Positions 7,501 to 60,918 of a stretch of 64,000 nucleotides of DNA are shown in pieces. The stretch comes from Arbacia lixula (lineage: Eukaryota; Echinodermata; Echinoidea; Arbacioida; Arbaciidae), in NCBI GenBank assembly GCA_963669155.1, contig OZ022583.1, forward strand, positions 8,229,921 to 8,293,920. Reading direction: 5' to 3'. Position numbers and translations under genes: made by a program. The notes beneath the pieces were generated by a model that was not told the DNA's origin, searched no databases, and saw only the letters and a program-made list of their open reading frames with translations. Every line of letters starts with the position of its first letter. Position 1 is the first letter of the stretch.

Positions 7501-8990
7501 TTGCATCAAAACATAATTTTGGAAAAAGAATACTGCAAAAAAAAATGAGACAATTATTCCTATCAAAAGAGGACTGAGATTTGAGATTTGCTTCACCCAC
7601 ACCACACATACTGCTACACTACACTACATCCATTCAGTACACCCTTCCTCCACAGTGAACGTTGCAGCTGGATCAATATTTTTTTCCAAATCAACACGGA
7701 CAAAGAAAGTCGTCAAACAGCATCTATTCCTGGAAATATCACTATGAGAGCCAACTCAAACTTGCATTTTACATGTCAACATAGCTAGCACTCTAAACGA
7801 AAATAAACTACGAATACAATGATTACCTTGTTTGTCTGTAGAATGAGTTTTCTTTCCGATATTTCTCAGCTCAGCTCAGGCTGTTTTATGCAGTACGTGA
7901 CGTACCGGTGTCCGTGCGCATGCATTATGTACAGCTGTGTGTTTAGTACACATACAACATGTGCAAAAGGGCAATGACCTTTGACCGCGACAATACACCT
8001 ATTCGGGAAATTCCCAATTACAAAAGAAAAAAAAAAAAGAAGGGGGGGGGGGGGGCGGTGAGGCGTGGTAGTTTGTAATGATACCTCTTTTATGTGCCAA
8101 TCCCAAATTTTCACATTCAAAGAGGGAATGTTGTTCTTATATTTTGTCGTGATGAAATATGACTTCTTTACCAAAATTTCACTTTATTTTGAAAGATTTT
8201 TTTTCCAAAGACCAAAATATTACTTGTTTACTAGAATGTGGTATAAGAAGACCACTTCTACTGCAGAATTAATATCTAGTCCTACTTAGGCTTAGTTGGT
8301 GTAGACACAAAGGCCTACACACACACAACATATCATGGTGCATCCACTGTTTTATTTGTCTGTTCCCGTTCAGTTTGCACAAATATTTACCGCTTATGTT
8401 ATATCTGGTATTTAGAGAAATTAATAAAAAGAAATTATAGAAAATAATGACAATTATTACACATTGTATTTAATGTAGTTATTAAAACAATAGAATTGAT
8501 AATGTAGTCAGGACAACATATTATGCATAAATGCGTTTCAAGAGTATGAACAATAATTTATAATAATGTCATGGTTATGCAAATTGCAAATCTGAATTGT
8601 ACAACTTGTATGACAAAACAAATACATTATCATGATACGAAAAAAAATACAGAAGAAATAACCTATAGAACAATACCAAACATATTAGCTTAGAATAAAC
8701 AAAAGATTAAAGCACACGTTTATCATAAGCAGATAAACATAAAGTTAAGGCACTGAATAATAGACATTATCTTAGGCACATCTTATCATGATAATGATGA
8801 AGTGAACGATAGCATGGTGGTACGACAAATTATTGTGGTTTTAAATGCATTCATAGAAACCGGATGGAAATAGCACTTACAGACACGTTCTTGCGAATCC
8901 TGATAAGTGATATCCCGAATAGATGTATGTATATTTACAAGAAACTTCACTACTACTTAACATGCGCCCCGCCCCCCCCCTCTCTCTTTC
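4509..8990. other. Intergenic AT-rich DNA, no supported gene
   Basis: Several short open frames occur, but none has a recognisable domain, splice-supported continuation or coding-like composition. Visible items are a short GAT trinucleotide run near 7433-7450, a 14-base G run near 8043-8056 after an A run, and AT-rich simple sequence. Nothing else could be supported. Confidence 0.5.
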
Positions 8991-8993
8991 TTT

Positions 8994-9033
8994 CTCACAC
9001 ACACACACACACACACACTCTCTCTCTTTCTAT

Positions 9034-9117
<84 letters not shown>

Positions 9118-9205
9118 TCTCTCTCCCTCTATCTCCCTTCTCTCTCTTCTCTCTCTTTCTCTAATTCTCTCTCTCTCTCTCTTTTATTCTCCCCCTCTAC
9201 TCTTT
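8994..9205. repeat. (CA)n and (CT)n microsatellite block
   Basis: Alternating CA runs (8996-9018 and 9036-9070) and long CT runs (9071-9111 and later) are followed by a T tract near 9203-9218. Long SLSL/THTH reading frames across it are artefacts of the dinucleotide repeat. Confidence 0.95.
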
Positions 9206-33941: not shown

Positions 33942-34520
33942 ATAGTTTTTTTTACTTCATTCTCTCTCTTTCTTTTATATAGGATATAATATGTTGTGGA
34001 TTGCCCTCTATACACACCACCTCTCCATTCCTCTTCAGGGAAATGACGTTTTGGCAATTTTATTTGTATTATATATTCATTATTTAATTTTCATTTGATA
34101 ATGATCCTCCTTCATTTAATCATCTTTTGAAATGTATGTGCCAGCAAACAAAAGCTTCTATACTTCACTATTTTTGTTTCATATATTTTCTTTTTTTTGG
34201 TTTATTCATTCTCTCTGTTTTGTTTTGTTTTTCTTTTAAAAATTTTATTTTTAGATATACTACACGCATTTTCCATGAATTGATGTGTATTTTATGTGTC
34301 ATTGTATATTTATGGACACGTATCCGCGGGATCACCGCCAATAATCGCAAGCATTGCCAATCTGTCAATGGTACTAGTAGATTATTATCATCATTTTTTT
34401 TAAAATCCAAAATAGGTTTCTAAATAGCCAATAAATCAAAGCTGAAAAATCGCAATTTCGGCGGGGGAAAGTCATTGTCTAATGCATTCAAAATGTCTCG
34501 AGTTCAAGTTAATCAATAAA
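33186..34520. other. Intergenic DNA with CT microsatellite and a diverged direct repeat
   Basis: A CT-rich run covers about 33894-33941. Blocks at about 33770-33860 and 34018-34115 share CTCTCCATTCCTCT, CAGGG.AATGACGTT and ATTTAATTTTCATTTGATA-like text. No gene was seen. Confidence 0.5.
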
Positions 34521-34544
34521 CCAATCAATCAATCAAGTTTACCA

Positions 34545-34980
34545 ATCAATCAAGTTCATCAATCAACCAAGTTTACCAATCAACCATCTCAATCAATCAA
34601 GTTTACCAATCAACCATCTCAATCAATCGAGTTTAACAATCAACCATCTCAATCAATCGAGTTTATCAATCAACCATCTCAATCAATCAAGTTTTATCAA
34701 TCAACCATCTCAATCAATCAAGTTTACCAATCAACCATCTCAATCAATCAAGTTTACCAATCAACCATCTCAATCAATCGAGTTTACCAATCAACCATCT
34801 CAATCAATCAAGTTTTATCAATCAACCATCTCAATCAATCAAGTTTACCAATCAACCATCTCAATCAATCAAGTTTACCGATCAACCATCTCAATCTATC
34901 AAGTTTACCAATCAACCATCTCAATCAATCAAGTTTACCAATCAACCATCTCAATCAATCAAATTTATCAATCAATCATC
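34545..34980. repeat. 30-bp minisatellite, about 14 copies
   Basis: The unit AATCAATCAAGTTTACCAAT followed by CAACCATCTC repeats tandemly with few differences. Two copies carry one extra T (GTTTTATC), which shifts the frame. The long plus-strand NQPSQSIKF reading frame across it is a by-product of the repeat. Confidence 0.95.
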
Positions 34981-35239: not shown

Positions 35240-36672
35240 TTATCTACGAGATAATTTCCTGCACTTGTTGTTCACCGCTTCCCTGAGCTGTTTCGTCTGG
35301 GCACCCGATGACAGTCCTCCGGGGAATTGGGCTTCGGCCTGGGACACTATCGCGATGAAGCAATTATCCTTACGGAGCGTGGTCTTCGAGACGATTCTCC
35401 CCGAGCAAATGACATCTCCTCCATTGAAGTTACTCGAAGCAAGCTCTCCCGTTGTGAAGTGTCGGCTCAGCAGACTCAGCACAAGATCCTTGGCGGAAGA
35501 CGCTGCATCCCAGCACTTAAGGTATTCAGTCTTGTCCATTTCGACTTTGGCGTCTCGCGACCCAATGAAAACACGAGTGTCCGACCCGAAGACGGGTGTG
35601 AAGACGGGTGGGTTCTTCCGATCCACATCACGGAACCTTCGAACCTCCTCTCTTAGGTGCTGGACCTCGAGCAAAACGGCTCGGTGTTGCTCTTGCAACG
35701 TTTGGATCTCCTTGGTGAGGGTAGCTACTTGGGAAGACAATTGAAGAATGACTGATTCTAGTCCGATTGGTGGCTGGAGAGGCTGCCGGGCGAAGCTAGG
35801 TTGGTGAAGCTCAGGCTGGTAGTATGGCTGATAGGTCTCTGCTTGGTAGGGCCGCTGGTAAAAGTTTGGTCGGTGGAGGGCTGACTGTTGAATCTCTGCT
35901 TGGAGGGATGTGGGCTGGGTTATGGGACGTTCTTCGATGAGGGGCGGAGGTTGACGACAGGTCTCAGGATCTGGGCGGTGAACTAGTGCAGGAATGGTCT
36001 GGTCGACTGGGTCATCATCTGAGTCACTAAGGCCACTGAATCGAAGCTAAGTGTGGGAGAAAAAAAAAGAGAGAAAAGACATTCATGGTTAATAATAATA
36101 ATAATAAAAGAATAAAAACAAGATATGGAAACAGGGGAAACAAATTGTGATAGAGGTAAACAGAGAGAGAGAGGGCGAGAGATTGGAGCGAGAGAGAGCG
36201 CGGTGTGGAAATAGGTACTGACATATAAAAAATGACACAATAAAAGGCTTAATGTGGCAAAAATAATTGGCACAGTTAACAATAATTACCTCAAAATCGT
36301 TGGGGGTTGTGTCGCTATCAACCGCCTCAGTGGGAGTGTCTTCCAACGTCTCAGTGGGCGTGTTGTCGACCATCGTCTCAGTGGGCGTGTCATCGTCCAA
36401 CGTATCAGTGGGCGTGTCATCCATCGTCTCAGTGGACGTGTCGTCGACCATCGTCTCAGTGGGCGTGTCGTCGTCAAACGTCTCAGTGGGCGTGTCATCG
36501 TCCATCGTCTCAGTGGGCGTGTTGTCGACCATCGTCTCAAGGGGTGTCTCGTTCAGCGCCTCGGCCGGTATCCTAAAGGGACGTCGATTGCGAATTGCAG
36601 CTCTCAGTCGTTTGTTCAGCATTGTCCTGTTCGCTGCAGGCGCCACCTTTCTGACTTGGACTCTTGGTTTTC
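35240..36672 (-). CDS. BEN-domain protein with acidic repeats, 3' exons
   Basis: Two minus-strand exons join in phase 0. The 36290-36672 exon (acceptor ...CTTCAG, entered in phase 1) has a basic start (KPRVQVRKVAPAANR) and about nine tandem copies of a 9-10-residue acidic repeat of the type DDDTPTETM. The 35240-36046 exon (TAA at 35240) has a Q/P-rich linker (PNFYQRPYQAETYQPYYQPE), a coiled coil (TLTKEIQTLQEQHRAVLLEV) and a C-terminal BEN domain from VFIGS through FTTGELASSNFNGGD to LREAVNNKCRKLSRR. Family knowledge: BEN domains bind DNA and recruit chromatin factors, so a nuclear DNA-binding or silencing role is likely. The frame is open throughout and both splice sites are good. No in-frame ATG precedes the repeats, so an upstream exon is needed; 44688-44847 fits in phase. 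Confidence 0.8.
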
Positions 36673-43155: not shown

Positions 43156-44445
43156 TCAATTCATTCTTTCTTGACTTTGTGGTGGCTCTGAAAAGAGCCG
43201 TTGGTTTGGCGCGTTCAATGCCGACTTGCTCAAGCCAAAGAGAGCTCGGCGACATTTCGCATTGATCGCATTTCGGAGATCATTTCGAGCCTTCTCTGAT
43301 TTAAAGCTTCCTGGGAAATCGAATTCCGCCTGAACGAGGACAGCACGGAAAGCCAGTTTGGTGTACAGTGCTTCTTTCATCACGCGTGTCCCATTATACG
43401 AGACTGCACCACCGTAGAAATTTGACCTAGCCAGCTCCTGAGTAGAGTACACTGCACCAAGGAGACGGAGGACAAACTCCTTTCCCTCTTTCGATCGATG
43501 GAATGCTTCTAGGTACTTGGCCTTTGAGAAGATGTGCGCCGCTTGATCGTTGCCAATGAAAACGTTGCACGCGTCGAAAACTCTGGCGGTTGGTTCCTCT
43601 TTCTTGGCGGCAGACTTGCCCTCGATCACTGCCTTTAACTCGTTGACTTCAAGCTTCAACTCCCGATTCTGCTCGATGAGCATGTGCATACTGCGCACAA
43701 GTTGCTCAATCGGCAAGGTGTTGAGATCGCTTGGCTGGTCCCTCAGGTGGCTTGGCATGTCCTCCAGGACACTTGGCAGATCCCCCAAGTCGCTTGGCTG
43801 GTCCCCCAGGTCGCTTGGCTGGTCCCCCAGGTCGCTTGGCTGGTCCTCCAGATCGCTTGGTTGGTCCTCCAGGTGGCTTGGCATGTCCTCCAGGACACTT
43901 GGCTGGTCCCCCAGGTCGCTTGGCTGGTCCCCCAGGTCGCTTGGCTGGTCCTCCAGATCGCTTGGCTGGTCCCCCTGGTCGTTTGGCTCGTCCCCCAGGT
44001 CGCTTGGCTGGTCCTCCAGATCGCTTGGCTGGTCCTCCAGGTGGCTTGGCATGTCCTCCAGGACACTTGGCTGGTCCCCCAGGTCGCTTGGCTGGTCCTC
44101 CAGATCGCTTGGCTGGTCCTCCAGGTCGCTTGGCTGGTCTTCCAGGTCGCTTGGCTGGTCCTCCAGGTGGCTTGGCTGTCCCCACGAAGGTAACCCACGG
44201 AGAGGGGCTTGGGCTCTTGCTCTTCTTTCAATCCTCTCTCGTCGTTTGCGTGCCAGTGGATTTTCCTTGACTTCTGTGGGAGTCCTCTCCACGATCTTGG
44301 CCTTGTAGGTCCCGCCGTCGTGGTTGACGTTCACCGCCATCCCAGCCTCCAGCCTGCCTTTCTCCCTGATCTGCCTTCTGTCTATTTCTTCTTCGGTTCC
44401 ACGCCAACATGGATGAAGCCATCTCACGGTTACTCGTTGATTCAT
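43156..44445 (-). CDS. BEN-domain protein with heptapeptide repeats, single exon (429 aa)
   Basis: One uninterrupted 429-codon frame starts at ATG 44445. Residues 1-60 form a small module (WLHPCWRGTEEEID, then GRLEAGMAVNVNHDG and TYKAKIVERT) that could be an SH3- or Tudor-like barrel. A basic stretch follows (ARKRRERIERRARAQ). Next come about 22 tandem heptapeptides of the type QPSDLED/QPSDLGD (about 43725-44186). Then follow a coiled coil (IEQNRELKLEVNELKAVIEG) and a BEN domain (VFIGNDQAAHIF, STQELARSNFYGGAVSYNG, FDFPGSFKSE and NAINAKCRRALFG). It has the same plan as the spliced BEN gene at 35.2-36.7 kb. The role is inferred as nuclear DNA binding. It may be a retrocopy of a spliced relative, or an independent gene. 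Confidence 0.85.
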   Translation of the reverse strand: MNQRVTVRWLHPCWRGTEEEIDRRQIREKGRLEAGMAVNVNHDGGTYKAKIVERTPTEVKENPLARKRRERIERRARAQAPLRGLPSWGQPSHLEDQPSDLEDQPSDLEDQPSDLEDQPSDLGDQPSVLEDMPSHLEDQPSDLEDQPSDLGDEPNDQGDQPSDLEDQPSDLGDQPSDLGDQPSVLEDMPSHLEDQPSDLEDQPSDLGDQPSDLGDQPSDLGDLPSVLEDMPSHLRDQPSDLNTLPIEQLVRSMHMLIEQNRELKLEVNELKAVIEGKSAAKKEEPTARVFDACNVFIGNDQAAHIFSKAKYLEAFHRSKEGKEFVLRLLGAVYSTQELARSNFYGGAVSYNGTRVMKEALYTKLAFRAVLVQAEFDFPGSFKSEKARNDLRNAINAKCRRALFGLSKSALNAPNQRLFSEPPQSQERMN

Positions 44446-45929: not shown

Positions 45930-46375
45930 CCCAAGAAAGAAGATGTCACGCTCAACGCCGATCATGTTCTCTTCACATCCGATCACGGCCTTGTTGTCTG
46001 GCAACAGTATGTACTTGGGAGGAGGCTTCATCATGGACTCAGCCTTGGCCTGGAGCTCCTTCACCTGGCGTTCCAGCTCCCGATTGCGCAGCACTAGCTT
46101 TCGATTCTCCTAAGTCGCTTGCTCTCGTCCAGCAACATGACGAACGCCGAAGCGTTGTTGACAGGAGTCGATGAGGGATGGGTCATGGGAGGTCGTGTCT
46201 TCGTTGTCGTTAGGGGAGTCATGTCTGCGTCTTCCAGGGAAGTTGGTTCTGCATTATCTTCAAGGGCTCTCATGTGACACAATGTAACAGAATGATGGGG
46301 CTTTAGAAATAGCTCTGCCCTCCTGGGCCCAGAGAAAGGGAGGGTAAATGACCACATTGTGAGACTAACAGGCAC
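45930..46375 (-). pseudogene. BEN-family-like remnant with coiled coil
   Basis: In one frame the minus strand reads TSLEDADMTPLTTTKTRPPM through FVMLLDESKRL. After a one-base shift near 46110 it continues ENRKLVLRNRELERQVKELQ, then PPPKYILLPDNKAVIGCEEN, and stops near 45938. The acidic linker, coiled coil and VIG motif echo the two BEN proteins nearby (coiled coil, then VFIG). The BEN core itself is missing. Its truncated end is next to HECT copy 3. Assignment to the BEN family is inference. Confidence 0.4.
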
Positions 46376-46700
46376 CCAAGCTGGAGTAGCCTAACTTTAA
46401 GATTGGAATAGGGTGGCGACCTGCCCTACTACCTCTTACTTTCTCTAAGAAATGCAAGAGCACTGCCTTATCCTTTCTCTTTGCAATCAACCATGCCACA
46501 GGAAACCTCTTTCCAAATTCCTCCACCACTAGCACAGTCACTAACAAGAAATCATACGCATTTGTACCGTGTGTAGAATCCATACAAATCAATTTTTTAC
46601 CAAGAGCTTTCAGCATGTCCCTTTGGATTAGCGTCATCATTCCCAACACAAAATCACCCCTGCCTGAATTGTCTTCTGGACAGTTCGCACCCTAATCCTT
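46365..46700 (-). pseudogene. Mutator-like (MULE) transposase fragment
   Basis: The minus strand reads GDFVLGMMTLIQRDMLKALG, then ICMDSTHGTNAYDFLLVTVL and VVEEFGKRFPVAWLIAKRKD, then KAVLLHFLEKVR. DSTHGTN with the first catalytic aspartate, followed by a hydrophobic strand and FPVAW, is the start of the MULE-type DDE domain. The remaining catalytic residues are absent and the frame ends near 46365. Upstream minus-strand text to 47004 (STYKNEGTEHLRLIRVSIYR) may belong to the same element but was not recognised. Its FPVAWLIA segment is the source type of the pieces inside HECT copies 2 and 3. Confidence 0.7.
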
Positions 46701-47465
46701 GTACTGGCGAACAGTATTCAGGTCTTAGTGTTCTTTTCAAACATACAATTCCACACAAGCGGCTACCAGTGTAGTTGAGCCCATTCTGGCCATGGGCAAT
46801 AAGGCCTCTCTTGGTTGTATGTTGATTGAGGGCTTTTTTGCCACATTCTGACACGCTGGCAGGGTGAGTTTTTGTTGGAGTTAGCTCTCCCTTATCAAAA
46901 GCACGATAAATGCTAACACGAATTAACCGAAGGTGCTCTGTGCCCTCGTTCTTGTAGGTGGATCTACAATCTACAAATCTTCCAGGATGAAGACGTCTGT
47001 CCACTGCTAGATTCTTGTGGCCAGCAGATTGGTGCAGCCAGCAGCATGTTTAGAACAAAGCTTCTCATCCAGGCAGTGAACATTCCGTTGGTTGCTGGTT
47101 CTTGATCCGTGCTTCTTCTGTCGGTGCTTGAAGAGACCAAAACAGTGTCTTCCCATTGTTTAGGCTCTGAATTTAATATTTATTACTGGTATTTATCCAG
47201 GGTTAACACTGTTCTACCAGAGGCTCTGCCTTGACATTTTTTTCATTTAAAACATGGTAACAACATGATATCATTATCCTGCCTAGATTTAAGTTTAAAC
47301 TTTAAACAAGTTTAAACAAACAATAATAACATGGTATTTGATTTAAAATACAAATTAAAACAAGAACCTGTACTATACAATGACAGCTGTGTTGCCTAAT
47401 CTTCCCAATCCTATGTAGTCCAATGGCAGCCAATTTACAAATAGTATAAATGTGAGTGTTCATAC

Positions 47466-48735
47466 TCAGATCATCCTGAACAATAACTCCAAGGTCACAT
47501 GCTTTTCAAACTCTCTAGTCTTGGAAAACTGGGTCCAAATGGTGCCTCTGGTTGTCCATTTTCCCATTGAGTTTGTATGGGCACCAGCTGTCAGATGGAC
47601 AGCATTGATATCATCTGGAAGCTTAAGTCTCGTGATAAAGAGTTGCCCAGACTGCATTGGACATGTTGGTAATGCAGGTACTTCTTTCTTTTGACTGGGT
47701 AGTATTTTGGTGTATGGCATTTCACCCCACTACCCACTGGCTTTCCATCAGCCAATTTTCCCTTCGTTGTTGTCCGAACCTTATCTAAACTCTTGTTCAT
47801 CCTTTTACCAACATGTCCAATGCAGTCTAGCTTCTCCACCACATCGTCTTCGCTGTCTCCATACACATTCCTAACTGCCTTGAATGCAGAGCTATCGCCA
47901 TCTGAAATCATCCACTTTTTTTAATATCGCATGTTGTGCTTTTGTATGGAATTTTTTCCAGAGGACAAGAGCCCTGGCAGCCTCCATAGCATTATTTTAA
48001 CCATTTCTCTGACAGTTCCCGTTCTCTTTGTGATGCTTCTGCCACTTTTCACATTCGTCTTTTTCCATTTTGCCTCTGTGCTGTTGACATTCTTCACCTA
48101 TTCGGGAATGGATGTGGCGGTCCAGCACTTTGCCTGTATCCGCTGATATCACTAGGCCAACCCCGATGTTTGATCAATGGCCTCGTTCCATCACATGAGA
48201 CAGTGACATCTAAAATTGTGTCCGAGGTGACAGATGAATCCTCCATCAGGAGTTCATGTAGTCTCTTTGCTGCTTCAGCCATTTCTGCTTCTGCAATGGC
48301 TTTAGCTGAAGATGCTACATTTTTTACTTGACGTGCAAATGCTCTCTCTGACAATGGTGGAGGCATGTTCAGAAAAGCGCAAATATCAGCTATGCCTCTT
48401 CTTCCGGTCCCTACTTCAATTGATAACGTTTGCTTATGTCACTACTTTTTGTTGAGGATTCTCGCCTTGAAGTCACAAACGTAGTGGCAGGCACCACCTT
48501 CAGTTTGCTCCATGTCAGGAACCATCACTCTCCACAACAGACAGATGACCTTTATAAATATGAACAAACAAAAATGTGACATGTAAAACATGGTAAATTA
48601 CTTCATTGTAACAAGACTCCATTTTTCTCATTTCTTGGAACTGCACACCTCTAAAACCTCGATAAGAACGTTTTCCGCGACCCTTTTTGGGTAGACAAGC
48701 ACAAATTAATGTCTGATCAGGAGGCATTACTGTAA
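47466..48735 (-). pseudogene. Decayed Mutator-family transposase (PF20700-like)
   Basis: Minus-strand blocks in order: a candidate N-terminal exon from about 48727 (MPPDQTLICACLPKKGRGKR, then YRGFRGVQF); LSERAFARQVKNVASSAKAI; DVTVSCDGTRP near 48180; then after a frame change GVGLVISADTGKVLDRHIHS and MEKDECEKWQKHHKENGNC; AMEAARALVLWKKFH; MISDGDSSAFKAVRNVYG and VVEKLDCIGHVGKRMNKSL. DGT, ISADTGKVLD, SDGDS and CIGHVGKRM in this order match my recollection of the invertebrate Mutator-like transposase domain. At least four frame breaks make it non-functional. Its N-terminal ATG context (ATGCCTCCTGATCAG) is the same as the start of the PHD segment in the array that follows at higher coordinates. Confidence 0.65.
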
Positions 48736-49145
48736 CTTTTAAATTGATAATTTCAAGATTTATTCACCAAAGTCAGTGGAAACACTATGTCCCAAGTATA
48801 TCTACAGGTGTTTTTATAGCCACTATAGAAGATAATGTTACACATTTCATTCTAAACCAAACTGAAGATATAACAGTGTTATACCCCCTCCCCCATGCAT
48901 TAAGAGAATACTGTATTGTGACCCAAAATAAACCACTTCATGAAAGTGGAACATCACATTACTGGAAATCATAAAAACGCACACTATGCCGACAAACAAC
49001 TAAACTGTATGTCTGAAATGCGGTCCCCTTTTGAAAAGAGGACAGGTTTTGTGAGAACAAGGCCATTTTCTCGGTTGGGCCGGTCGCAATTTCAAGCATG
49101 TGCACAATTTAGCACATGTACATATTTGCTCATTCATCATACTCA
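48716..49145 (-). repeat. Array unit 0 (partial, C2H2 segment deleted)
   Basis: The sequence matches the later units from AATTTCAAGATTTATTCACC to the AACAAACAACTAAACTGTATG/TTTTGTGAGAACAAG region. About 250 bases that encode the C2H2-like segment in other units are missing (junction near 48840). It directly precedes the start codon of the decayed Mutator transposase. Confidence 0.75.
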
Positions 49146-49147
49146 GT

Positions 49148-49180
<33 letters not shown>

Positions 49181-49189
49181 TATTAGATG

Positions 49190-50300
49190 ACGAGGCATTT
49201 GGCTATTATTGGAGCGCATGAGAGGGGTCTCTCTCTCGCTATTTCACGGTTTCGGGGACCGTGTAACCCGCCCAACATTACTCATATTCAACGAATCTGA
49301 GGTGGAAGACTGAAGTTTGATATCATCCCCAGCCTTCCGCATAACAGTGACCCCTGCGCCTGCCGTGGGTTTGTTTAGTGCCTCTTTACGAGACGGAAGC
49401 GTGTAGAACACACCCTCCTTGTTCGATCCTCTAGGCTCTCGGGACTATCCCAGTCTGGCTGTCTTAGAGGTTTTCTCAAGTCCCCTTGAGAGCCGTTCTA
49501 GCCTGGTACAAAGTCCAGAGAACGTTCCATTCAAACTATCGCATCAAAGAATGCCTGCACCAGTTTGACCGTGCCACTCAGTGCGATCAAGCACAGTTTA
49601 GCAATCTTGCTACTACTTAGACTCAATACCCTGGTCATACGATCGTTCCGCGTACAATACGTTCCCCTTGCTCCGAGAACAAATCCATGAACTTCAACCT
49701 TTGACACACTGCAGAGGGTCTTGACCTTCGGAATAACAGTTATACTTCCGGACCTTCTCCTCGTAGGCGGCCTCCAGCTGAGCCATGTCATTGTCCCAGA
49801 CCACAGTGGGGTCGACTACATAGCAGACTTCCCCACTACGGAGTATCAGGTCCGGGCGCAGCCGAACACCACCAGGGTCGAAGAGAGTGGGCTCCTCGAT
49901 GACCCTGAGACCCCGCTCCGCAGCGACTTTGGCTCCCAGAGCACAAATCTTGTTGTGCCTGTTAATCCGCTCGAGAGAAACGAAATGACAGGCACCCGAA
50001 ATGTGTCCAGTCGTCTCGGTCGTACGGCCAAAACGACGACAGATTGCATCCATACCTCTGCGACCTCTACTAAGAGTCTCCTTTGTCCCTACTGTGTTCG
50101 ATCGTAACTTCAACGCGCATAGATACTCTATTTCCGAGAGGAAACTCCTGCCACCGATCCACCGATTAACGATAGGATTACGGTAACAGTTGTTCCCCCT
50201 GGAGGAGGTCCCCATTTGCTCCCACTTTCGGAGGTGAAGCTCTCTCCAACCCAGATTACTTCCATGCTTTGGGGGCACTGGAAGTGAGGTAGCCTCAGCT
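49190..50300 (-). pseudogene. R2-superclade retrotransposon 3' end, copy 1
   Basis: The main minus-strand frame (50278-49694) has the R2-type C-terminal domain: CRRFGRTTETTGHISGAC (the second cysteine of the zinc motif is F in this copy), then RPDLILRSGEVCYVVDPTVV, the restriction-like endonuclease core. The text stops at LQCVKG, while an overlapping frame continues VEVHGFVLGARGTYCTRNDR to LVQAFFDAIV. The end of the protein is therefore frameshifted. A ~300-base non-coding 3' region follows to about 49190. The reverse transcriptase is absent (5' truncated at 50295). Confidence 0.75.
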
Positions 50301-50310
50301 AGAGTATGCA

Positions 50311-51177
50311 GTTACACATACTGGAGCTGCACATACTGGAAACACATACTCACCTTTTGGCGGGTCTCTTTTTCCCTACATACTTAATGTGGCACCATCT
50401 ACCACAGACCTTGCATCCAACCCATCTTGTAGTTGATAGTGGCTTGGTACAGCCCACTGTATCACACATTATGCTCTGGACATGAGGCATTACTGTAACT
50501 TTTAAATTTCAAGATTTATTCACCAAAGTCAATGGAAACACTACATCCAAGTATATCCAAGTAGAGTTTTTTTTATCATTCATTGGCAGTCCATCGTAAC
50601 GATGATGAATAAGAGAGAAATCTGTTTTTTTCTTTTTAAATGTTTCTATGGGTGACTCCAGTCCAATTCTGCCAGCACAGCGGAAGCCGCAAACATTACA
50701 CTTGAAAGGTTTGTCAGTGTTATTGGTAGAAGATGCCATAGCATACCTAGCAGCTCTTCTATTCAAAGCAGCTTGGCGCGCTCTTCTTCTTTTTCTATCA
50801 TTATAGAAGACAATTTTATACATTTCATTTCTAAACCAAACTGAAGATGTAACAGTGTTATACCCTCTCCCCCATACATTAAGAGAATACTGTATTGTGA
50901 CACAAAATAAACCACTTCATAAAAGTGGAACATCACATTACTGGAAATATAATCATAAAAACGCACACTATGCTGACAGACAACTAAATTGTATGTCTGA
51001 AATACGGTCTCCTGTTAAAAAGAGCACAGGTTTTGTGAGAACAAGACTATCCAATGGCCTGTGCTGGCACCTGCTGGTTATTCTGCGCAATAAAGAAATG
51101 CTCATGTTCATGTATGTAAATTATCTGTAAATGTATTTGTGGGCAGTCGCACAGTGACTGAGTCACTGACTAATCAG
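50311..51177 (-). repeat. Array unit 1 (PHD + C2H2-like)
   Basis: The unit contains the PHD segment (about 50355-50490, one extra base breaks the frame after GRWC...KKRP), the C2H2-like segment (50520-50830, NRRAARYAMASSTNNTDKPF then KCNVCGFRCAGRIGLESPIE) and the shared AT-rich tail to GACTAATCAG. It directly follows R2 copy 1 in plus coordinates. Confidence 0.85.
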
Positions 51178-52070
51178 CTACACATACTGGACATACTGGA
51201 CACACATACTGACCTTTTGGCGGTCTCTTTTTCCCTACATACCGGTACTTAATGTTGCACCATCTACCACAGACCTCGCATCCAACCCATCTTGTAGTTA
51301 ATAGTGGCTTGGTACAGCCCACTGTATCACATATTGTGCTCTGGTCAGGAGGCATTACTGTAATTTTTCAATTGATGAAAATTTCAAGATTTATTCCCCA
51401 AAGTCAATGGAAACACTACGTCCAATTATGTCTGTAGAGTTTTTTTTATCATTCATTGGCAGTCCATCGTCACGATGATGACTAAGAGAGAATTTTTTCT
51501 TTCTTTTTTCTTTTTTAATGTTTCTATGGGTGACTCCAGTCCAATTCTGCCAGCACAGTGGAAGCCGCAAACATTGCACTCAAAAGGTTTGTCAGTGTTA
51601 TTGGTAGAGGATGCCATAGCATGCCTAGTAGCTCTCCTATTCAAAGCAGCTTGGCGGCGCTCTTCTTTTTTTTGATCATTTTAGAAGATAATTTTACACA
51701 TTTCATTTCTAAACCAAACTGAAGATAAAACAGTGTTATATCCCCTCCCCCATACATTAATAAAATACTGTATTGTGATCCAAAATAAACCACTTCATAA
51801 AAGTGGAAAGTCACATTACTGGAAATATCATCATAAAAAGGAGGCTATGCTGACAAACAACTATCCTGTGTGTCTAAATACGTTCTCCTGTTAAAAAAAA
51901 CCACAGGTTTTGTGAGAACAAGGCTATTTTCTTGGTTTAGATCAATGGCCTGTGTTGGCACCCGCTGGTTATTCTGCGCAACGAAGAAATCTATATGTTC
52001 ATGTATGCAAATTATCTGTGTAAATGTATTAGTGGGCAATCGCACAGTGACAGATTCACTGACTAATCAG
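51178..52070 (-). repeat. Array unit 2 (PHD + C2H2-like)
   Basis: The PHD frame is open from ATG 51355 (MPPDQSTICDTVGCTKPLLT, then WVGCEVCGRWCNIKY and QYVCPVCPVC). The pattern C-x2-C..C-x2-C..W-x-C..C-x2-C fits a PHD-type zinc finger. The C2H2-like segment is at 51391-51644 (FECNVCGFHCAGRIGLESPI). Some bases differ from units 1 and 3 throughout, including TTTTCTTGGTTTAGATCAAT in the tail. Confidence 0.85.
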
Positions 52071-52160
52071 TTACACATACTGGACACACATACTGGACAC
52101 ACATACTGGACACACATACTGGACACACATACTGGACACACATACTGGAGCTACCCATAC
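52071..52160. repeat. 13-bp minisatellite at the PHD 3' end
   Basis: ACACACATACTGG repeats about six times. On the minus strand it extends the PHD C-terminal YVCPVC text, cycling VCPVCVSSMCVQY every 39 bases because 13 is not a multiple of three. Confidence 0.9.
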
Positions 52161-53014
52161 TGGACACACAAACTCACTGTTTGGTGGTCTTTGTATCCTT
52201 ACATACTTAATGTGGCACCATCTACCACAGACCTCGCATCCAACCCATCTTGTAGTTAATAGTGGCTTGGTACAGCCCACTGTATCACACATTGTGCTCT
52301 GGACAGGAGGCATTACCGTAATTTTTCAGTTGATGAAAATTTCAAGATTTATTCACCAAAGTCAATGGAAACACTACGTCCAAGTATATCTGTAGAGTTT
52401 TTTTTATCATTCATTGGCAGTCCATCGTAACGATGATGACTAAGAGAGAAATTTTTTTTTTCTTTTTTCTTTTTTAATGTTTCTATGGGTGACTCCAGTC
52501 CAATTCTGCCAGCACAGCGGAAGCCGCAAACATTAAACTCAAAAGGTTTGTCAGTGTTATTGGTAGAAGATGCCATAGCATGCCTAGCAGCTCTTCTATT
52601 CAAAGCAGCTTGGCGGTGCTCTTCTTTTTCTATCATTATAGAACACAATTTTGCACATTTCATTTCTAAACCAAACTGAAGATGTAACAGTGTTATACCC
52701 CCTCCCCCATGCATTAAGAGAATACTGTATCGTGACACAAAATAAACCACTTCATAAAAGTGGAACATCACATTACTGGAAATATAATCATAAAAACGCA
52801 CACTATGCTGACATACAACTAAATTGTATGTCTGAAATACGGTCTCCTGTTAAAAAGAGCACAGGTTTTGTGAGAACAAGACTATCCAATGGCCTGTGCT
52901 GGCACCTGCTGGTTATTCTGCACAATAAAGAAATGCTCATGTTCATGTATGTAAATTATCTGTGTAAATGTATTTGTGGGCAGTCGCACAGTGACAGATT
53001 CATTGACTAATCAG
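52071..53014 (-). repeat. Array unit 3 (PHD + C2H2-like), longest open copy
   Basis: The PHD frame (52313-52071) ends in a 13-bp minisatellite. The C2H2-like frame is open for 150 codons (52801-52349): FHFYEVVYFVSRYSILLMHG, then EEHRQAALNRRAARHAMASS, FNVCGFRCAGRIGLESPIET and a lysine-rich stretch to SIDFGE. Its TAA stop (52349-52351) lies inside AATAAA (52348-52353), so stop and polyadenylation signal coincide. The basic stretch plus CNVCGFxCAGRIGL resembles the C-terminal zinc-knuckle regions found at the ends of many animal non-LTR retrotransposon proteins. That link is inference. Confidence 0.85.
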
Positions 53015-53140
53015 CTACACATACTGGAGCTACACATTAAGAAAGCATATTATAATTTCTTGAAATCTAATATGGGAAATATGACAAACAGATAAACAAT
53101 ACAATTTCCACTAGTAGTTGGAAGGCCTCATTTATATTGA

Positions 53141-54000
53141 GCTACACATACTGGGCACTCATACTCACCTTTTGGTGGTCTCTGTATCGCTATGTGGCAC
53201 CATCTACCACAGACCTCGCATCCAACCCATCTTGTAGTTAATAGTGGCTTGGTACAGCCCACTGTATCACACATTGTGCTCTGGACAGGAGGCATTACTG
53301 TAATTTTTCAGTTGATGAAAATTTCAAGATTTATTCACCAAAGTCAATGGAAACACTACATCCAATTATATCTGTTTTTTAGTCTTTTTTTTTTATCATT
53401 CATTGGCAGTCCATCGTTACGATGATGACTAAGAGAAAAAATTTTCTCTTTTTTTTTTTTTAATGTTTCTATGGGTGACTCCAGTCCAATTCTGCCAGCA
53501 CAGTGGAAGCCGCAAACATTACACTCAAAAGGTTTCTTGTCAGTGTTATTGGTAGAAGGTGCCATGGCATGCCTAGTAGCTCTCCTATTCAAAGCAGCTT
53601 GGCGGCGCTCTTCTTCTTTTTTTATCATTTTAGAAGATAATTTTACACATTTCATTTCTAAACCAAACTGAAGATGTAACAGTGTTATACCCTCTCCCCC
53701 ATACATTAAGAGAATACTGTATTGTGACACAAAATAAACCACTTCATAAAAGTGGAACATCACATTACTGGAAATATAATAAAAACGCACACTATGCCGA
53801 CATACAACTAAATTGTATGTCTGAAATACGGTCTGTTAAAAAGAGCACAGGTGTTGTGAGAACAAGACTATCCAATGGCCTGTGCTGGCACCTGCTGGTT
53901 ATTCTGCGCAATAAAGAAATGCTCATGTTCATGTATGTAAATTATCTGTGTAAATGTATTTGTGGGCAGTCGCACAGTGACAGATTCACTGACTAATCAG
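53141..54000 (-). repeat. Array unit 4 (PHD + C2H2-like)
   Basis: It is preceded by a 125-base spacer (53015-53140) not seen elsewhere in the array. The PHD segment is at about 53160-53300, with the stretch between CEVCGRW and the last cysteines shortened. The C2H2-like segment is at 53356-53790 (KKPFECNVCGFHCAGRIGLE). It joins the tail block at 54001. Confidence 0.85.
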
Positions 54001-54675
54001 TTACACATACTGGAGCTACACATTAAAAACGTATATTATTTCCCCCACTGGTGTGCCGGTGGGGGAAAAGGGTGGGGGTGGGGACGGCAGTTCAAATTCC
54101 CGGTCCAACATGCAGGGGTCCTGTTGGTGTACTGTGGAATCCCAGCCATAAAAACTGCTACCCCTGTATTGTACATCTCTGTTGCAGATAGTCGTCCTTA
54201 TTACGGTAGTAGTAAGTCTCCCCGTGGCTTTGACCTTCATTGTAGTTGTCAAGGGTCGTTGTGGGGCGTCTCCCAGTATGCATTGGATCTAGGGTAATTA
54301 GGCCTAAGGGTAATCCCAGTTTTTCCTATTAGGGACATCTTGATATGTGTCTTCGGGGTCCCCTTCTCTCTGTCGCCCCATTCGCCTTGTTTCATTATCT
54401 TGAACGAATGAGGGTTCATCGTAACACTCGGTGTATTGGGTCCCTGTTTCTTCCCTTGCACATGCTCCCCTTAGCTCACTGGCTACGCCGCTCTTAAGTG
54501 GCGATTTTGGCAGCCTATTTTGGCTGTATTGATTTATAAATCAATACAACAAACAATTGACATTAGTATGTACAATACATCTCTTTGATAGTTATTTCAT
54601 GTCCGATACATCTTAGCTTTGTCTGCCCCAACTACATGCTACAGTAAATTATGACATGATTATATCAAATTCTAT
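54001..54675. repeat. Array tail block A
   Basis: Nearly identical to 59419-60095 over about 670 bases. It includes a CCCCCACTGGTGTGCCGGTGGGGG hairpin near 54042, a GT-rich stretch, and TTGATTTATAAATCAATACA. It follows an array unit in both places, so unit and tail were duplicated together. Confidence 0.9.
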
Positions 54676-55534
54676 ATATCCCAGTCTGGCTGTCTTAGAG
54701 GTTTTCTCAAGTCCCCTTGAGAGCCGTTCTAGCCTGGTACAAAGCCCAGAGAACGTTCCATTCAAACTATCGCATCAAAGAATGCCTGCACCAGTTTGAC
54801 CGTGCCACTCAGTGCGATCAAGCACAGTTTAGCAATCTGGCTACTACTTAGACTCAATACGCTGGTCATACGATCGTTCCGCGTACAATACGTTCCCCTT
54901 GCTCCGAGAACAAATCCATGAACTTCAACCTTTGACACACTGCAGAGGGTCTTGACCTTCGGAATAACAGTTATACTTCCGGACTTTCTCCTCGTAGGCG
55001 GCCTCCAGCTGAGCCATGTTATTGTCCCAGACCACAGTGGGGTCGACTACATAGCAGACTTCCCCACTACGGAGTATCAGGTCCGGGCGCAGCCGAACAC
55101 CACCAGGGTCGAAGAGAGTGGGCTCCTCGATGACCCTGAGACCCCGCTCCGCAGCGACTTTGGCTACCAGAGCACAAATCTTGTTGTGCCTGTTAATCCG
55201 CTCGCGAGAAACGAAATGGCAGGCACCCGAAATGTGTCCAGTCGTCTCGGTCGTACGGCCACAACGACGACAGATTGCATCCATACCTCTGCGACCTCTA
55301 CTAAGAGTCTCCTTTGTCCCTACTGTGTTCGATCGTAACTTCAACGCGCATAGATACTCTCTTTCCGAGAGGAAACTCCTGCCACCGATCCACCGATTAA
55401 CGATAGGATTACGGTAACAGTTGTTCCCCCTGGAGGAGGTCCCCATTTGCTCCCACTTTCGTAGGTGAAGCTTTCTCCAACCCAGATTACTTCCATGCTT
55501 CGGGGGCACTGGAAGTGAGGTAGCCTCAGCTAGA
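54676..55534 (-). pseudogene. R2-superclade retrotransposon 3' end, copy 2
   Basis: The frame 55509-54925 carries the intact zinc motif CRRCGRTTETTGHISGAC (C-x2-C-x8-H-x4-C) and the endonuclease text RPDLILRSGEVCYVVDPTVV. The same frame change after LQCVKG as in copies 1 and 3 separates it from the GFVLGARGTYC end. The 3' region is shorter than in copies 1 and 3. Its upstream junction (AGCTAGATTATGCAG) matches copy 1 (AGCTAGAGTATGCAG). Confidence 0.8.
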
Positions 55535-55540
55535 TTATGC

Positions 55541-56432
55541 AGTTACACATACTGGAGCTACACATACTGGAAACACATACTCACCTTTTGGCGGGTCTCT
55601 TTTTCCCTACATACTTAATGTTGCACCATCTACCACAGACCTCGCATCCAACCCATCTTGTAGTTAATAGTGGCTTGGTACAGCCCACTGTATCACACAT
55701 TGCGCTCTGGACAAGAGGCATTACTGTAATTTTTCAATTGATGAAAATTTCAAGATTTATTCACCAAAGTCAATGGAAACACTACGTCCAAGTATATCTG
55801 TAGAGGTTTTTTATCATTCATTGGCCGTCCATCGTTACGATGATGACTAAGAGAGAATTTTTTCTTTCTTTTTTCTTTTTTTAATGTTTCTATGGGTGAC
55901 TCCAGTCCAATTCTGCCAGCACAGTGGAAGCCGCAAACATTACACTCGAAAGGTTTGTCAGTGTTATTGGTAGAAAATGCCATAGCATGCCTAGTAGCTC
56001 TCCTATTCAAAGCAGCTTGGCGGCGCTCTTCTTCTTTTTCTATCATTATAGAAGACAATTTTATACATTTCATTTCTAAACCAAACTGAAGATGTAACAG
56101 TGTTATACCCCCCCCCCCCCCCCCCCATACATTAAGAGAATACTGTAGTGTGAGACAAAATAAACCACTTCATAAAAGTGGAACATCACATTACTGGAAA
56201 TATAATCATAAAAACGCACACTATGCCGACATACAACTAAATTGTATGTCTGAAATATGGTCTCCTGTTAAAAAAAGCACAGGTTTTGTGAGAACAAGAC
56301 TATTTTCTCAGTTCAGATCAATGGCCTGTGCTGGCACTTGCTGGTTTTTCTGAGCTATAAAGAAATGTATATTTCATGTATGTTAATGTATTTGTGGGCA
56401 GTCGCACAGTGACCGAGTCACTGACTAATCTG
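55541..56432 (-). repeat. Array unit 5 (PHD + C2H2-like)
   Basis: The PHD segment is at about 55570-55720. The C2H2-like segment is at 55750-56073 (NRRATRHAMAFSTNNTDKPF then ECNVCGFHCAGRIGLESPIE). A pure run of 18 C residues lies near 56110. The tail is slightly shortened and ends ACTAATCTG. Confidence 0.85.
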
Positions 56433-56575
56433 TTACACATACTGGAGCTACACATATTGGACACACATACTCACCTTTTGGTGGTCTCTCTATCCTTACA
56501 TACTTAATGTTGCACCATCTACCACAGACCTTGCATCCAAACCATCTTGTAGTTAATAGTGGCTTGTACAGCCCA
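56433..56575 (-). repeat. Array unit 6 (PHD segment only)
   Basis: The PHD text is KPLLTTRWFGCKVCGRWCNI, then RPPKGEYVCPICVAPVC. The usual start (MPP...CDTVGC) is replaced at 56575 by a BEN fragment. The BEN frame ends in a stop at the junction, so the two are not a fusion protein. Confidence 0.8.
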
Positions 56576-56795
56576 CTATACAGCTCGGCGACACTTGGCA
56601 TTGATCGCGTTTCGAAGGTAGGTTTGAGACTTCTCTGACTTGAAGCTACCAGGGAAATCAAATTCCGCCTGTACGAGGACGGCACTGAAAGCCAGCTTGG
56701 TGAGGAGCGATTCTTCATGCGTGTCCCATTGTATGCGACGGTACCTCCGTAGAGTTTCAACTTTGTCAGCTCGTGAGGAGAGTAGACTGCACCAA
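56576..56795 (-). pseudogene. BEN-domain C-terminal fragment inside the array
   Basis: The minus strand reads KLYGGTVAYNGTR in one frame and LLTKLAFSAVLVQAEFDFPG, SFKSEKSQTYLRNAINAKCR in another. It is close to the C-terminal BEN region of the 429-residue gene (FYGGAVSYNGTR...FDFPGSFKSE...NAINAKCRR). One frame break and truncation at both ends make it non-functional. Confidence 0.8.
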
Positions 56796-58216
56796 GCGCA
56801 TGAGAGGGGTCTCTCTCTCGCTATTTCACGGTTTCGGGGACCGTGTAACCCGCCCAACATTACTCATATTCAAAGAATCTGAGGTGGAAGACTGAAGTTT
56901 GATATCATCCCCAGCCTTCCGCATAACAGTGACCCCCGCGCCTGCGTGGGTTTGTTTAGTGCCTCTTTATGAGACGGAAGCGTGTAGAACACACCCTCCT
57001 TGTTCGATCCTCTAGGCTCTCGGGACTATCCCAGTCTGGCTGTCTTAGAGGTTTTCTCAAGTCCCCTTGAGAGCCGTTCTAGCCTGGTACAAAGCCCAGA
57101 GAACGTTCCATTCAAACTATCGCATCAAAGAATGCCTGCACCAGTTTGACCGTGCCACTCAGTGCGATCAAGCACAGTTTAGCAACCTGGTTACTACTTA
57201 GACTCAATACCCTGGTCATACGATCGTTCTGCGTACAATACGTTCCCCTTGCTCCGAGAACAAATCCATGAACTTCAACCATTGACACACTGCAGAGGGT
57301 CTTGACCTTCGGAATAACAGTTATACTTCCGGACCTTCTCCTCGTAGGCGGCCTCCAGCTGAGCCATGTCATTGTCCCAGACCACAGTGGGGTCGACTAC
57401 ATAGCAGACTTCCCCACTATGGAGTATCAGGTCCGGGCGCAGCCGAACACCACCAGGGTCAAAGAGAGTGGGCTCCTCGATGACCCTGAGACCCCGCTCC
57501 GCAGCCGAGCACCACCAGGGTCAAAGAGAGTGGGCTCCTCGACGACCCTGAGACCCCGCTCCGCAGCGACTTTGACTACCAGAGCACAAATCTTGTCGTG
57601 CCTGTTAATCCGCTCGCGAGAAAAGAAATGACAGGCACCCGAAATGTGTCCAGTCGTCTCGGTCGTACGGCCACAACGACGACAGATTGCATCCATACCT
57701 CTGCGACCTCTACTAAGAGTCTCCTTTGTCCCTACTGTGTTCGATCGTAACTTCAACGCGCATAGATACTCTCTTTCCGAGAGGAAACTCCTGCCACCGA
57801 TCCACCGATTAACGATAGGATTACGGTAACAGTTGTTCCCCCTGGAGGAGGTCCCCATTTGCTCCCACTTTCGTAGGTGAAGCTTTCTCCAACCCAGATT
57901 ACTTCCATGCTTCGGGGGCACTGGAAGTGAGGTAGCCTCAGCTATCCGGTCGATCTGACTCACTGCCCCGAGTGCAGAGGCGATACCGGAGATAACTTCG
58001 TCGGCCGATCTCGTAACATTGGACAGCATCTTCATCCGCGCCGTCGGGATGGAGTCTGCGAGGCAGGGCAATCCGAGGCCACCAGCGCACTTCCTGGTGT
58101 AGAGGAAGTGGTTAGTGGTCTGGTCTGCTAAGTGGTACCACTTCGTAGCGAAGAAGCGTACGGTCACGTCCAGGGCCCGTATTGCAGTACAGCTGTACCC
58201 TCCTTTGATTAGATCG
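56796..58216 (-). pseudogene. R2-superclade retrotransposon 3' end, copy 3 (longest)
   Basis: The frame 58167-57427 extends further upstream than in copies 1 and 2 (VRFFATKWYHLADQTTNHFL, then YTRKCAGGLGLPCLADSIPT), the region between reverse transcriptase and zinc motif in R2-type proteins. The zinc motif CRRCGRTTETTGHISGAC is intact. A ~63-base tandem duplication at about 57441-57562 (CACCAGGGTCAAAGAGAGTG present twice) then breaks the endonuclease frame. The 3' region to 56796 matches copy 1, including TTTCACGGTTTCGGGGACCG. Confidence 0.8.
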
Positions 58217-58539
58217 TTTTATATCCCCTCCCCCATACAATAAGAGAATACTGTATTGTGACCAAAATAAACCACTTCATAAAAGTGGAACATCACATTA
58301 CTGGAAATATAATCATAAACACGCACACTATGCCGACATACAACTAAACTGTATGTCTGAAATACGTTCTCCTGTTAAAAAGAGAACAGGTTTTGTGAGA
58401 ACAAGACTATCCAATGGCCTGTGCTGGCACCTGCTGGTTATTCTGCACAATAAAGAAATGCTCATGTTCATGTATGTAAATTATCTGTGTCAATGTATTT
58501 GTGGGCAGTCGCACAGTGACAGATTCACTGACTAATCAG
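58217..58539 (-). repeat. Array unit 7 (tail part only)
   Basis: It begins inside a unit at TATATCCCCTCCCCCATACA, immediately after R2 copy 3, and runs to GACTAATCAG. The C2H2-like and PHD segments are missing. Confidence 0.85.
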
Positions 58540-59418
58540 TAACACATACTGGAGCTACACATACTGGACACACATACTCACCTTTTGGCGGGTCTCTTTT
58601 TCCCTACATACTTAATGTGGCACCATCTTCCACAGACCTCACATCCAACCCATCTTGTAGTTAATAGTGGCTTGGTACAGACTACTATGTCATACATTGT
58701 GCTTTGGTAAGGAGGCATAACTGTAACTTTTCAATTGATAATTTCAAGATTTATTCACCAAAGTCAATGGAAACACTACGTCCAATTATATCTGTAGAGT
58801 TTTTTTTATCATTCATTGGCAGTCCATCGTTACGATGATGACTAAGAGAGAAATTGTTTTTTTCTTTTTTCTTTTTTTTAATGTTTCTATGGGTGACTCC
58901 AGTCCAATTCTGTCAGCACAGTGGAAGCCGCAAACATTACACTCAAAAGGTTTGTCAATGTTATTGGTAGAGGATGCCATAGCATGCCTAGCAGCTCTTC
59001 TATTCAAAGCAGCTTGGCGGTGCTCTTCTTTTTCTATCATTATAGAAGACAATTTTACACATTTCATTTCTAAACCAAACTGAAGATGTAACAGTGTTAT
59101 ACCCCCTCCCCCATGCATTAAGAGAATACTGTATCGTGACACAAAATAAACCACTTCATAAAAGTGGAACATCACATTACTGGAAATATAATCATAAAAA
59201 CGCACACTATGCTGACATACAACTAAATTGTATGTCTGAAATACGGTCTCCTGTTAAAAAGAGCGCAGGTTTTGTGAGAACAAGACTATCCAATGGCCTG
59301 TGCTGGCACCTGCTGGTTATTCTGCGCAATGAAGAAATGTTCATGTTCATGTATGTAAATTATCTGTGTAAATGTATTTGTGGGCAGTCGCACAGTGACA
59401 GATTCACTGACTAATCAG
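58540..59418 (-). repeat. Array unit 8 (PHD + C2H2-like)
   Basis: The PHD segment is at about 58565-58715 (start codon context GCATAACTG, altered). The C2H2-like segment is at 58813-59205 (NNIDKPFECNVCGFHCADRI). It is followed by tail block B. Confidence 0.85.
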
Positions 59419-60095
59419 CTACACATACTGCAGCTACACATTAAAAACGTATATTATTTCCCCCACTGGCGTGCCGGTGGGGGAAAGGGGTGGGGGTGGG
59501 GACGGCGGTTAAAATTCCCGGTCCAACATGCAGGGGTCCCGTTGGTGTACCGTGGAATCCCAGCCATAAAAACTGCTACCCCTGTATTGTACATCTCTGT
59601 TGCAGATAGTCGTCCTTATTACGGTAGTAGTAAGTCTCCCCGTGGCTTTGACCTTCATTGTAGTTGTCAAGGGTCGTTGTGGGGCGTCTCCCAGTATGCA
59701 TTGGATCTAGGGTAATTAGGCCTAAGGGTAATCCCAGTTTTTCCTATTAGGGACATCTTGATATGTGTCTTCGGGGTCCCCTTCCCTCTGTCGCCCTATT
59801 CGCCTTGTTTCAATGTCTTGAACGAATGAGGGTTCATCGTAACACTCAGTGTATTGGGTCCCTGTTTCTTCCCTTGCACATGCTCCCCTTAGCTCTCTGG
59901 CTACGCCGCTCTTAAGTGGCGATTTTGGCAGCCTATTTTGGCTGTATTGATTTATAAATCAATACAACAAACAATTGACATTAGTACGTACAATACATCT
60001 CTTTGATAGTTATTTCATGTCCGATACATCTTAGCTTTGTCTGCCCCAACTACATGCTACAGTAAATTATGACATGATTATATCAAATTCTATAT
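59419..60095. repeat. Array tail block B
   Basis: It matches tail block A almost base for base up to CAAATTCTATAT. After that point block A runs into R2 copy 2, while block B runs into unrelated sequence. It carries the same CCCCCACTGGCGTGCCGGTG hairpin. Confidence 0.9.
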
Positions 60096-60309
60096 AAAGT
60101 CCAAACCCATGAAGAACCGACATTAGAAGAATTTTGTTCTCATGGTTGCACTTTTCCTCCATCAGCGTTCCATCAACTTGGAGAGGAACAGACCTCCCAG
60201 CTTTCATGCTTGCTGTTAGGTCATTGTCAGTGTTGCTAGGAGGTTCTGCAAATGAAATATATTTTAAAATGTCAATGTTTCCCTTCCACTGGGACACGTG
60301 TAGATACAT
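60096..60309 (-). other. Unrecognised open frame next to the array
   Basis: An 80-codon minus-strand frame (60309-60067) reads HVSQWKGNIDILKYISFAEP, then VPLQVDGTLMEEKCNHENKI. Composition looks coding, but I recognise no domain and see no start context or partner exon. It may be a transposon remnant. Confidence 0.2.
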
Positions 60310-60756: not shown

Positions 60757-60918
60757 AAATATTGACTGCTATGAGGGGCACAGTTAAAATTATAAGCCCA
60801 AGATGATGTCAAAACCATGACTATGCCCGAAGCGAAGCTGAGGGCATAGTCATGGTTTTGACATCACCGAGGGCCTATGATTTTAACTGTGCCCCGAATA
60901 TTAAGCAGTCAATATTTG
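60757..60918. mobile_element. Perfectly pairing foldback element
   Basis: The arms start CAAATATTGACTGC and pair through GGGCACAGTTAAAAT, GATGTCAAAACCATGACTAT and GCCC around a short GAAGCGAAGCTGA loop, then reverse. Related text (GGGCACAGTTAATTTTGACG) recurs near 61114. A second inverted pair built on TAACCAATC(A)GATGAGAGGAAT and ATTCTTCTCATCGATTGGTTA brackets about 60940-61210, suggesting a larger parent element. Confidence 0.7.

Follow-up and report, generated by a model that had tools for sequence, protein, structure and literature searches.

The 64,000 nucleotides of Arbacia lixula DNA analysed here (positions 8229921-8293920 of contig C8, OZ022583.1; hereafter the window) contain an array of tandem units in which a backbone sequence carries PHD-like and C2H2-like zinc-finger segments and is interrupted by 3' ends of the retrotransposon R2. 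This locus raises the question whether the units are young zinc-finger genes, one cluster of a mobile or satellite family, a derivative of a single retroelement, or remnants of several elements brought together. We consider it likely that the array is a patchwork of transposon remnants that was amplified locally and has no function, with a captured fragment of R2 and 28S ribosomal RNA (rRNA). This reading draws on the homology of the backbone to a dispersed repeat, on the origin of the C2H2-like segment from a long interspersed nuclear element (LINE), with uninterrupted sites and a flanking direct repeat, on the identity of the R2 and 28S pieces, on the confinement of close R2 copies to the array in the searches made, on the loss of zinc ligands and on the even variation of codon positions.

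The array, which a preliminary description had proposed from the letters alone, was confirmed by repeat finding and self-BLAST of the window. It runs on the minus strand over ~11 kb, with a unit spacing of 865-992 bp and larger gaps where other pieces interrupt. Between 48718 and 59457, eight backbone pieces (two partial), seven PHD-like segments (one partial) and six C2H2-like segments were counted. The interruptions are three R2 3' pieces, a ~215-bp fragment akin to 43243-43461 and a duplicated block of 0.64 kb, here called the X block. Self-matches within the array reach 1.9 kb at 93%, far beyond chance. The six full units are mutually 89.7-97.4% identical, and the unevenness of this identity along their length suggests exchange among copies. 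The features of the array and of the sequence adjoining it are the following.

59457..60096, minus: X block, copy 1, recognised by its 97.95% identity to the other copy and by its junctions
58216..59457, minus: near-full backbone unit with LINE insert, frameshifted PHD-like copy and truncated backbone piece (58216-58562)
56795..58215, minus: R2 piece C, with the furthest 5' extent and an internal 62-bp tandem duplication, stopping ~7 nt before the R2 3' end
56582..56796, minus: fragment akin to 43243-43461 of a 429-aa open reading frame (ORF), 79% identity, called BEN in the preliminary description
55540..56580, minus: units comprising a partial PHD-like copy, a full backbone with LINE insert and a second, frameshifted PHD-like copy
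54677..55532, minus: R2 piece B, with an open 194-aa frame, cut in the 3' untranslated region (UTR) at the start of the X block
54039..54678, minus: X block, copy 2, joined to R2 piece B
50309..54039, minus: four backbone units with LINE insert, with PHD-like copies from 53295, 52313, 51355 and 50490
52399..52637, minus: one example of the C2H2-like segment, with the LINE C-terminus, tail and flanking repeats of the AATGAT(A/G)AAAAA type
49206..50301, minus: R2 piece A, with the zinc finger and endonuclease region in a 194-aa frame, and the 3' UTR to the R2 3' end
49144..49205, minus: 28S rRNA, 62 nt, starting at the R2 insertion point (Rfam LSU_rRNA_eukarya)
48718..49139, minus: backbone copy nearest the Mutator-type frames, lacking the C2H2-like insert; 14 dispersed loci match 48748-49139
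46094..48727, minus: sequence adjoining the array, outside the unit, with two decayed Mutator-type frames (47591-47911 and 48094-48366)

The duplicated tail block of the preliminary description was found as described: 54678-54039 repeats 60096-59457 with 97.95% identity over 633 aligned bases. The copy at 59457-60096 is probably the original one, since the flanking sequence runs on into it at 60096. The BEN label is not supported by Pfam: neither the source ORF nor the array piece gave a BEN match.

Relatives of the unit were searched in the assembly (606,990,701 bases, 590 contigs) with a tool that skips common words; wherever the best 40 candidates were scored, the matches listed are lower bounds. 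The query 50000-50800 comprised an R2 end, a PHD-like segment, a lead-in and a LINE segment, with the 5' part of the backbone excluded. It gave at least 45 matches (best 40 of 91 candidates), 10 of them in the array. The 35 matches at other places each span a single segment: 29 cover the lead-in (65-85 bp) and six, at five loci, the C2H2-like segment. No complete unit was found outside the array among these matches in the 607-Mb assembly. Twenty loci were fetched, namely those of 15 of the 29 lead-in matches and all five C2H2-like loci, one of which also matches a simple repeat near 42.8 kb. Fourteen of the 15 lead-in loci (L014-L027) match 48748-49139 over ~400 bp at 72.9-76.2%, and the remaining one, L028, is 87% identical to 153 bp of this stretch. 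Among the matches listed, the dispersed backbone loci have several kilobases in common with one another, at up to 99% identity. L014-L027 represent a dispersed repeat that exceeds 4.8 kb and includes minisatellite stretches; 13 of these 14 loci have the terminus TTTTTTGTAAGGG in common, and L021 stops slightly earlier. This terminal pattern was not found in the window beyond chance level. In two dispersed loci that were examined for ORFs, the frames measure 110-250 aa and many are repetitive. By homology, the array backbone is a member of this dispersed repeat family.

The same search bears on the possibility that the units form a mobile or satellite family also present at other loci, the array being one cluster of it. 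The tandem arrangement with its regular period and the dispersal of the backbone fit such a family, but all 35 of the listed matches elsewhere cover one segment only, which makes it very improbable. The genome-wide search proposed in the preliminary description thus found dispersed segments and, among the matches listed, no dispersed unit. Like transposon-derived tandem repeats and satellites, a general kind that we recall as such, the array consists of tandem units of transposon pieces with mosaic identities; it differs from them in its low copy number, its confinement to one locus as far as searched, its long period and its interruption by R2 derived from ribosomal DNA (rDNA).

The three interrupting R2 pieces span approximately 49206-50301 (piece A), 54677-55532 (piece B) and 56795-58215 (piece C). 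The 194-aa frame of piece B matched five PDB sequences at E-values up to 1. Three bear the name R2 (E 7.6e-28 to 9.3e-26); the remaining two (E 5.3e-13 and 5.4e-12) are labelled 'Reverse transcriptase-like protein' and are taken here to be R2 of Bombyx. The frame of piece A is 96% identical to that of piece B, and in register the pieces are mutually 97.0-98.9% identical. In the assembly, the frame of piece B matched the array pieces at 94-99% and five other places at 26-30% (all 15 candidates scored). These distant R2-like proteins lie in open frames of 557-1382 aa (C116:4692-5117 and 8773-9198, C1:48219616, C3:20308618 and 20313858); the pair on C116, spaced by 4081 bp, may be in tandem. A DNA search of the assembly with piece A found the array only, with no further copy (all three candidates scored). 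The reverse transcriptase (RT) and the N-terminal fingers are absent from all three pieces, which are 5'-truncated fragments and not elements. Pieces A and B have one common 5' junction, whereas the 5' extent of piece C is greater and its junction with the backbone lies at another point; its 62-bp tandem duplication (57438-57567) shifts the reading frame. The pieces are genuine R2, and the derivation of the array from transposons, with three R2-type 3' ends, as given in the preliminary description, was upheld.

Piece A reaches the R2 3' end and is followed by 62 nt of 28S rRNA, 61 of which equal the Rfam consensus (LSU_rRNA_eukarya, 54.3 bits against a gathering score of 50, E 1.4e-12; 171 bases scanned with permissive filters). 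The 28S piece was not listed in the whole-window Rfam scan with fast filters. It begins at TAGCC, directly before which we take the R2 insertion and cleavage point to lie, and the backbone resumes ~4 nt past it. The 28S sequence is found at the 3' end of piece A only, pieces B and C ending earlier, and none was seen by eye at the R2 5' junctions, which consist of array sequence. A DNA search with the 28S flank listed this locus only, with a tool that skips very common words. The flank is direct evidence that the R2 lineage of the array once sat at the 28S site, and its retention beside piece A argues that sequence of rDNA origin was taken up by the array and later copied within it. The distance between the R2 and R1 sites in Drosophila is 60 bp according to PMC3414825. 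With its 62 nt, the 28S piece differs from that distance by 2 nt, a coincidence that was noticed post hoc.

With R2, the 28S rDNA-specific non-long-terminal-repeat retrotransposon, the array pieces have in common the C-terminal zinc finger and endonuclease region and the 3' junction with 28S. Unlike R2 in rDNA, they are 5'-truncated, lie outside rDNA in three local copies and are joined to unrelated repeats. R2 may drive duplications within rDNA. An R2 protein carrying a read-through transcript with 28S sequence might likewise have hit a non-ribosomal tandem repeat and inserted a truncated R2 together with the 28S flank, the resulting breaks driving further local duplication; we regard this scenario as very improbable.

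The C2H2-like segment was traced by a protein search of the assembly, which gave six array copies, C1:43045900 (73%), C20:15441832 (67%) and then weaker places (all 38 candidates scored); the matches that lie within frames of 1104-1138 aa (E 0.5-2.4) are individually at chance level. At locus L010, a frame with an RT match (PF00078, E 3.5e-9) lies 87 bp upstream of a second frame, on the same strand but in a different register, that ends in the same finger; there the finger keeps both histidines. The layout of L012 resembles that of L010 with a weaker RT match below the cut-off (E 0.002), so that RT exceeds the cut-off in L010 only. Backbone without the C2H2-like segment, reading straight on across the site, is found in the copy at the Mutator end, in the dispersed loci and in L028. 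Around the insert, a direct repeat of the AATGAT(A/G)AAAAA type was recognised by eye. Its two copies agree at all 13 positions in one unit, at 12 of them in four units and at 11 in the remaining unit; the repeat is A-rich and its exact length is therefore uncertain. Because copies without the segment exist and a direct repeat flanks the insert, the segment is best read as the C-terminus and tail of a LINE RT gene, inserted in 5'-truncated form into the backbone. Its counterpart is the C-terminal part and tail of a LINE whose RT is followed by a zinc finger, but the array keeps only ~0.2 kb of such an element, without the zinc ligands and carried in tandem.

For the PHD-like segment, a protein search of the assembly found seven array copies, three of them with an internal TGA (all 48 candidates scored), and the nearest relatives outside the array (C4:13475906, C8:16791753 and C8:27223436) at 42-48%. 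These relatives hold an exon-like frame behind an apparent splice acceptor, and the one that was scanned gave PF00628 at E 2.2e-7. The array segment appears from these protein alignments to be a degraded relative of the exon-like PHD segment elsewhere.

Both finger labels of the preliminary description thus stand on homologues elsewhere in the genome and not on Pfam matches in the array, where support was poor. Of the two PHD-like copies scanned among seven, one scored 12.5 bits for PHD (cut-off 24) and also lacks a further cysteine, and the other gave no PHD match; the one C2H2-like copy scanned among six had no match with an E-value of 1 or less. Taking the residues concerned to be the zinc ligands, none of the six array copies keeps either of the two C2H2 histidines, other residues standing in their place. 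The cysteine of the PHD HxxC motif is changed to tyrosine in all six copies covering the position (the seventh lacks the stretch), and its histidine is lost in three copies. Three of the seven PHD-like copies are frameshifted. Variable sites are distributed evenly over the codon positions, with 9/12/10 in 50 PHD codons (p 0.80) and 7/10/11 in 62 LINE codons (p 0.63), although the sites are few. The ratio of nonsynonymous to synonymous polymorphism (pN/pS) among units is 0.90 for the PHD-like segment.

Several observations weigh against a decayed composite. In the comparison of substitutions among units, suggested in the preliminary description as a check, the pN/pS of the LINE segment, 0.52, is not neutral-looking and mildly favours constraint. 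The LINE segment also has fewer variable columns than the backbone (29/219 against 77/460), a difference that is not significant (p 0.26). Four of the seven PHD-like copies have no stop inside the match. The L010 finger reaches only 15.1 bits in Pfam (cut-off 25.2), and the PHD link is at the protein level only, as a BLASTN comparison between eight pieces of the array and eight PHD loci yielded a single weak match that looks like chance. Lastly, pieces A and B are 98.5% alike and the neighbouring unit 93.7%, both inside one duplicated block, and the identities therefore cannot date the steps. The copies without a stop and the low pN/pS are also what would be expected of a young zinc-finger gene cluster encoding PHD + C2H2 proteins, as had been suggested. 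Such a cluster is nevertheless highly improbable given the replacement of the C2H2 histidines and the HxxC cysteine in every copy covering them, the PHD scores below the Pfam cut-off in the two copies scanned, the frameshifts and the even variation of codon positions.

The preliminary description had also noted that the unit start recurs in an adjacent decayed Mutator transposase and that a transposon promoter or start may have been re-used. The ATGCCTCCTGATCAG start at 48727 is real and is common to the units and to a 70-aa frame on the Mutator side. Mutator-type frames do lie beside the array, a few hundred bases downstream, one with PF20700 at E 2.3e-7 (above the cut-off) and one at E 5.6e-6 (26.0 bits, just under the cut-off of 26.5). 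The 70-aa frame at the common start gave no Mutator match in Pfam up to an E-value of 1; such matches come from the two frames further downstream. With an 831-base query across the junction, the array lead-ins matched to position 131 at most, and at least 33 dispersed places were found (best 40 of 88 candidates), all 33 ending by position 104 and none continuing downstream of the start. None of these matches repeats what follows the start in the window, though diverged relatives would escape such a search. The common start is best read as the probable junction of the last array unit with other sequence. Capture of a Mutator promoter and start by the units, for which the common start and the nearby Mutator-type frames speak, is highly unlikely in view of the 70-aa frame without a Mutator match, the end points of the lead-ins and the membership of the lead-in in a dispersed repeat. 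Near these frames, a further transposase-like frame (46365-46649, minus) is ZSWIM/MULE-like, with PF21056 (E 8.4e-6) and PF10551 (E 1.1e-4) both below the cut-off.

R2 short internally deleted elements (SIDEs) are a known kind, as described in PMC3414825, and likewise contain the R2 3' end as a short piece; the array pieces differ in lying outside 28S genes, in a chromosomal contig among other repeats, and in not being bounded as an element. An amplified, internally deleted head-plus-tail derivative of R2 or another retroelement, to which the recurring R2 3' ends, the common unit-R2 junction of pieces A and B and the existence of SIDEs would lend themselves, is highly improbable, because the unit parts match other repeats and not R2, the C2H2-like part coming from a different LINE inside an unrelated dispersed repeat with the R2 pieces separate from it, because the junction of piece C with the array is not the one seen for A and B and most units have no R2 tail, and because neither the R2 5' ribozyme nor any other ribozyme family was found in the window at the Rfam gathering threshold, in the same scan that missed the short 28S piece and without weaker matches being sought.

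For the composite of transposon remnants that we favour, we infer the following course. A backbone copy of the dispersed repeat would have received the 5'-truncated 3' end of a LINE, the source of the C2H2-like segment, and this composite would have come to adjoin a decayed PHD-like exon. The composite may then have multiplied in tandem by unequal crossing-over and conversion, as suggested by the mosaic identities of the copies. An R2 piece with its 62-nt 28S flank could have been captured either by off-target R2 reverse transcription or by repair of a DNA break with an rDNA fragment, and would then have spread through local duplications. On this course, the units probably have no function.

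The 429-aa ORF to which the array fragment is akin (43156-44445, minus) contains ~21 seven-residue repeats, and its last codons contain a histone-type 3' stem-loop (43158-43204; Rfam RF00032, 40.6 bits, E 1.6e-8). At least two further copies of its 3' part, at 99%, are found on C2 and C21 (best 40 of 115 candidates), and at 97% identity these copies follow the window from 44582 at least as far as 41500, where the query stopped. As they run far past the stem-loop, the idea of a histone-terminated retrocopy was dropped. The 51 bp around the stem-loop recur at many places on C37, C123 and C16 at 86%, which are possibly histone clusters. Elsewhere in the window, minisatellites with 30-bp units (34504-34980) and 27-bp units (36326-36539) were noticed, the latter inside a 238-aa open frame. 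Just past the array, at 60770-60900, lies an inverted repeat with 64-nt arms that are 86% complementary and 3 nt apart.

The array is ordinary in kind, and the 28S flank is its one useful detail. It also offers a correction: what looks like a row of zinc-finger units can turn out to be a LINE C-terminus together with a decayed PHD exon, both borne within a repeat. PMC5035012 reports R2NS-1_PMi from Patiria miniata and leaves its boundaries and its target undetermined. If this element belongs to the same family as the R2 of the array, the 28S flank described here would indicate that it targets 28S.

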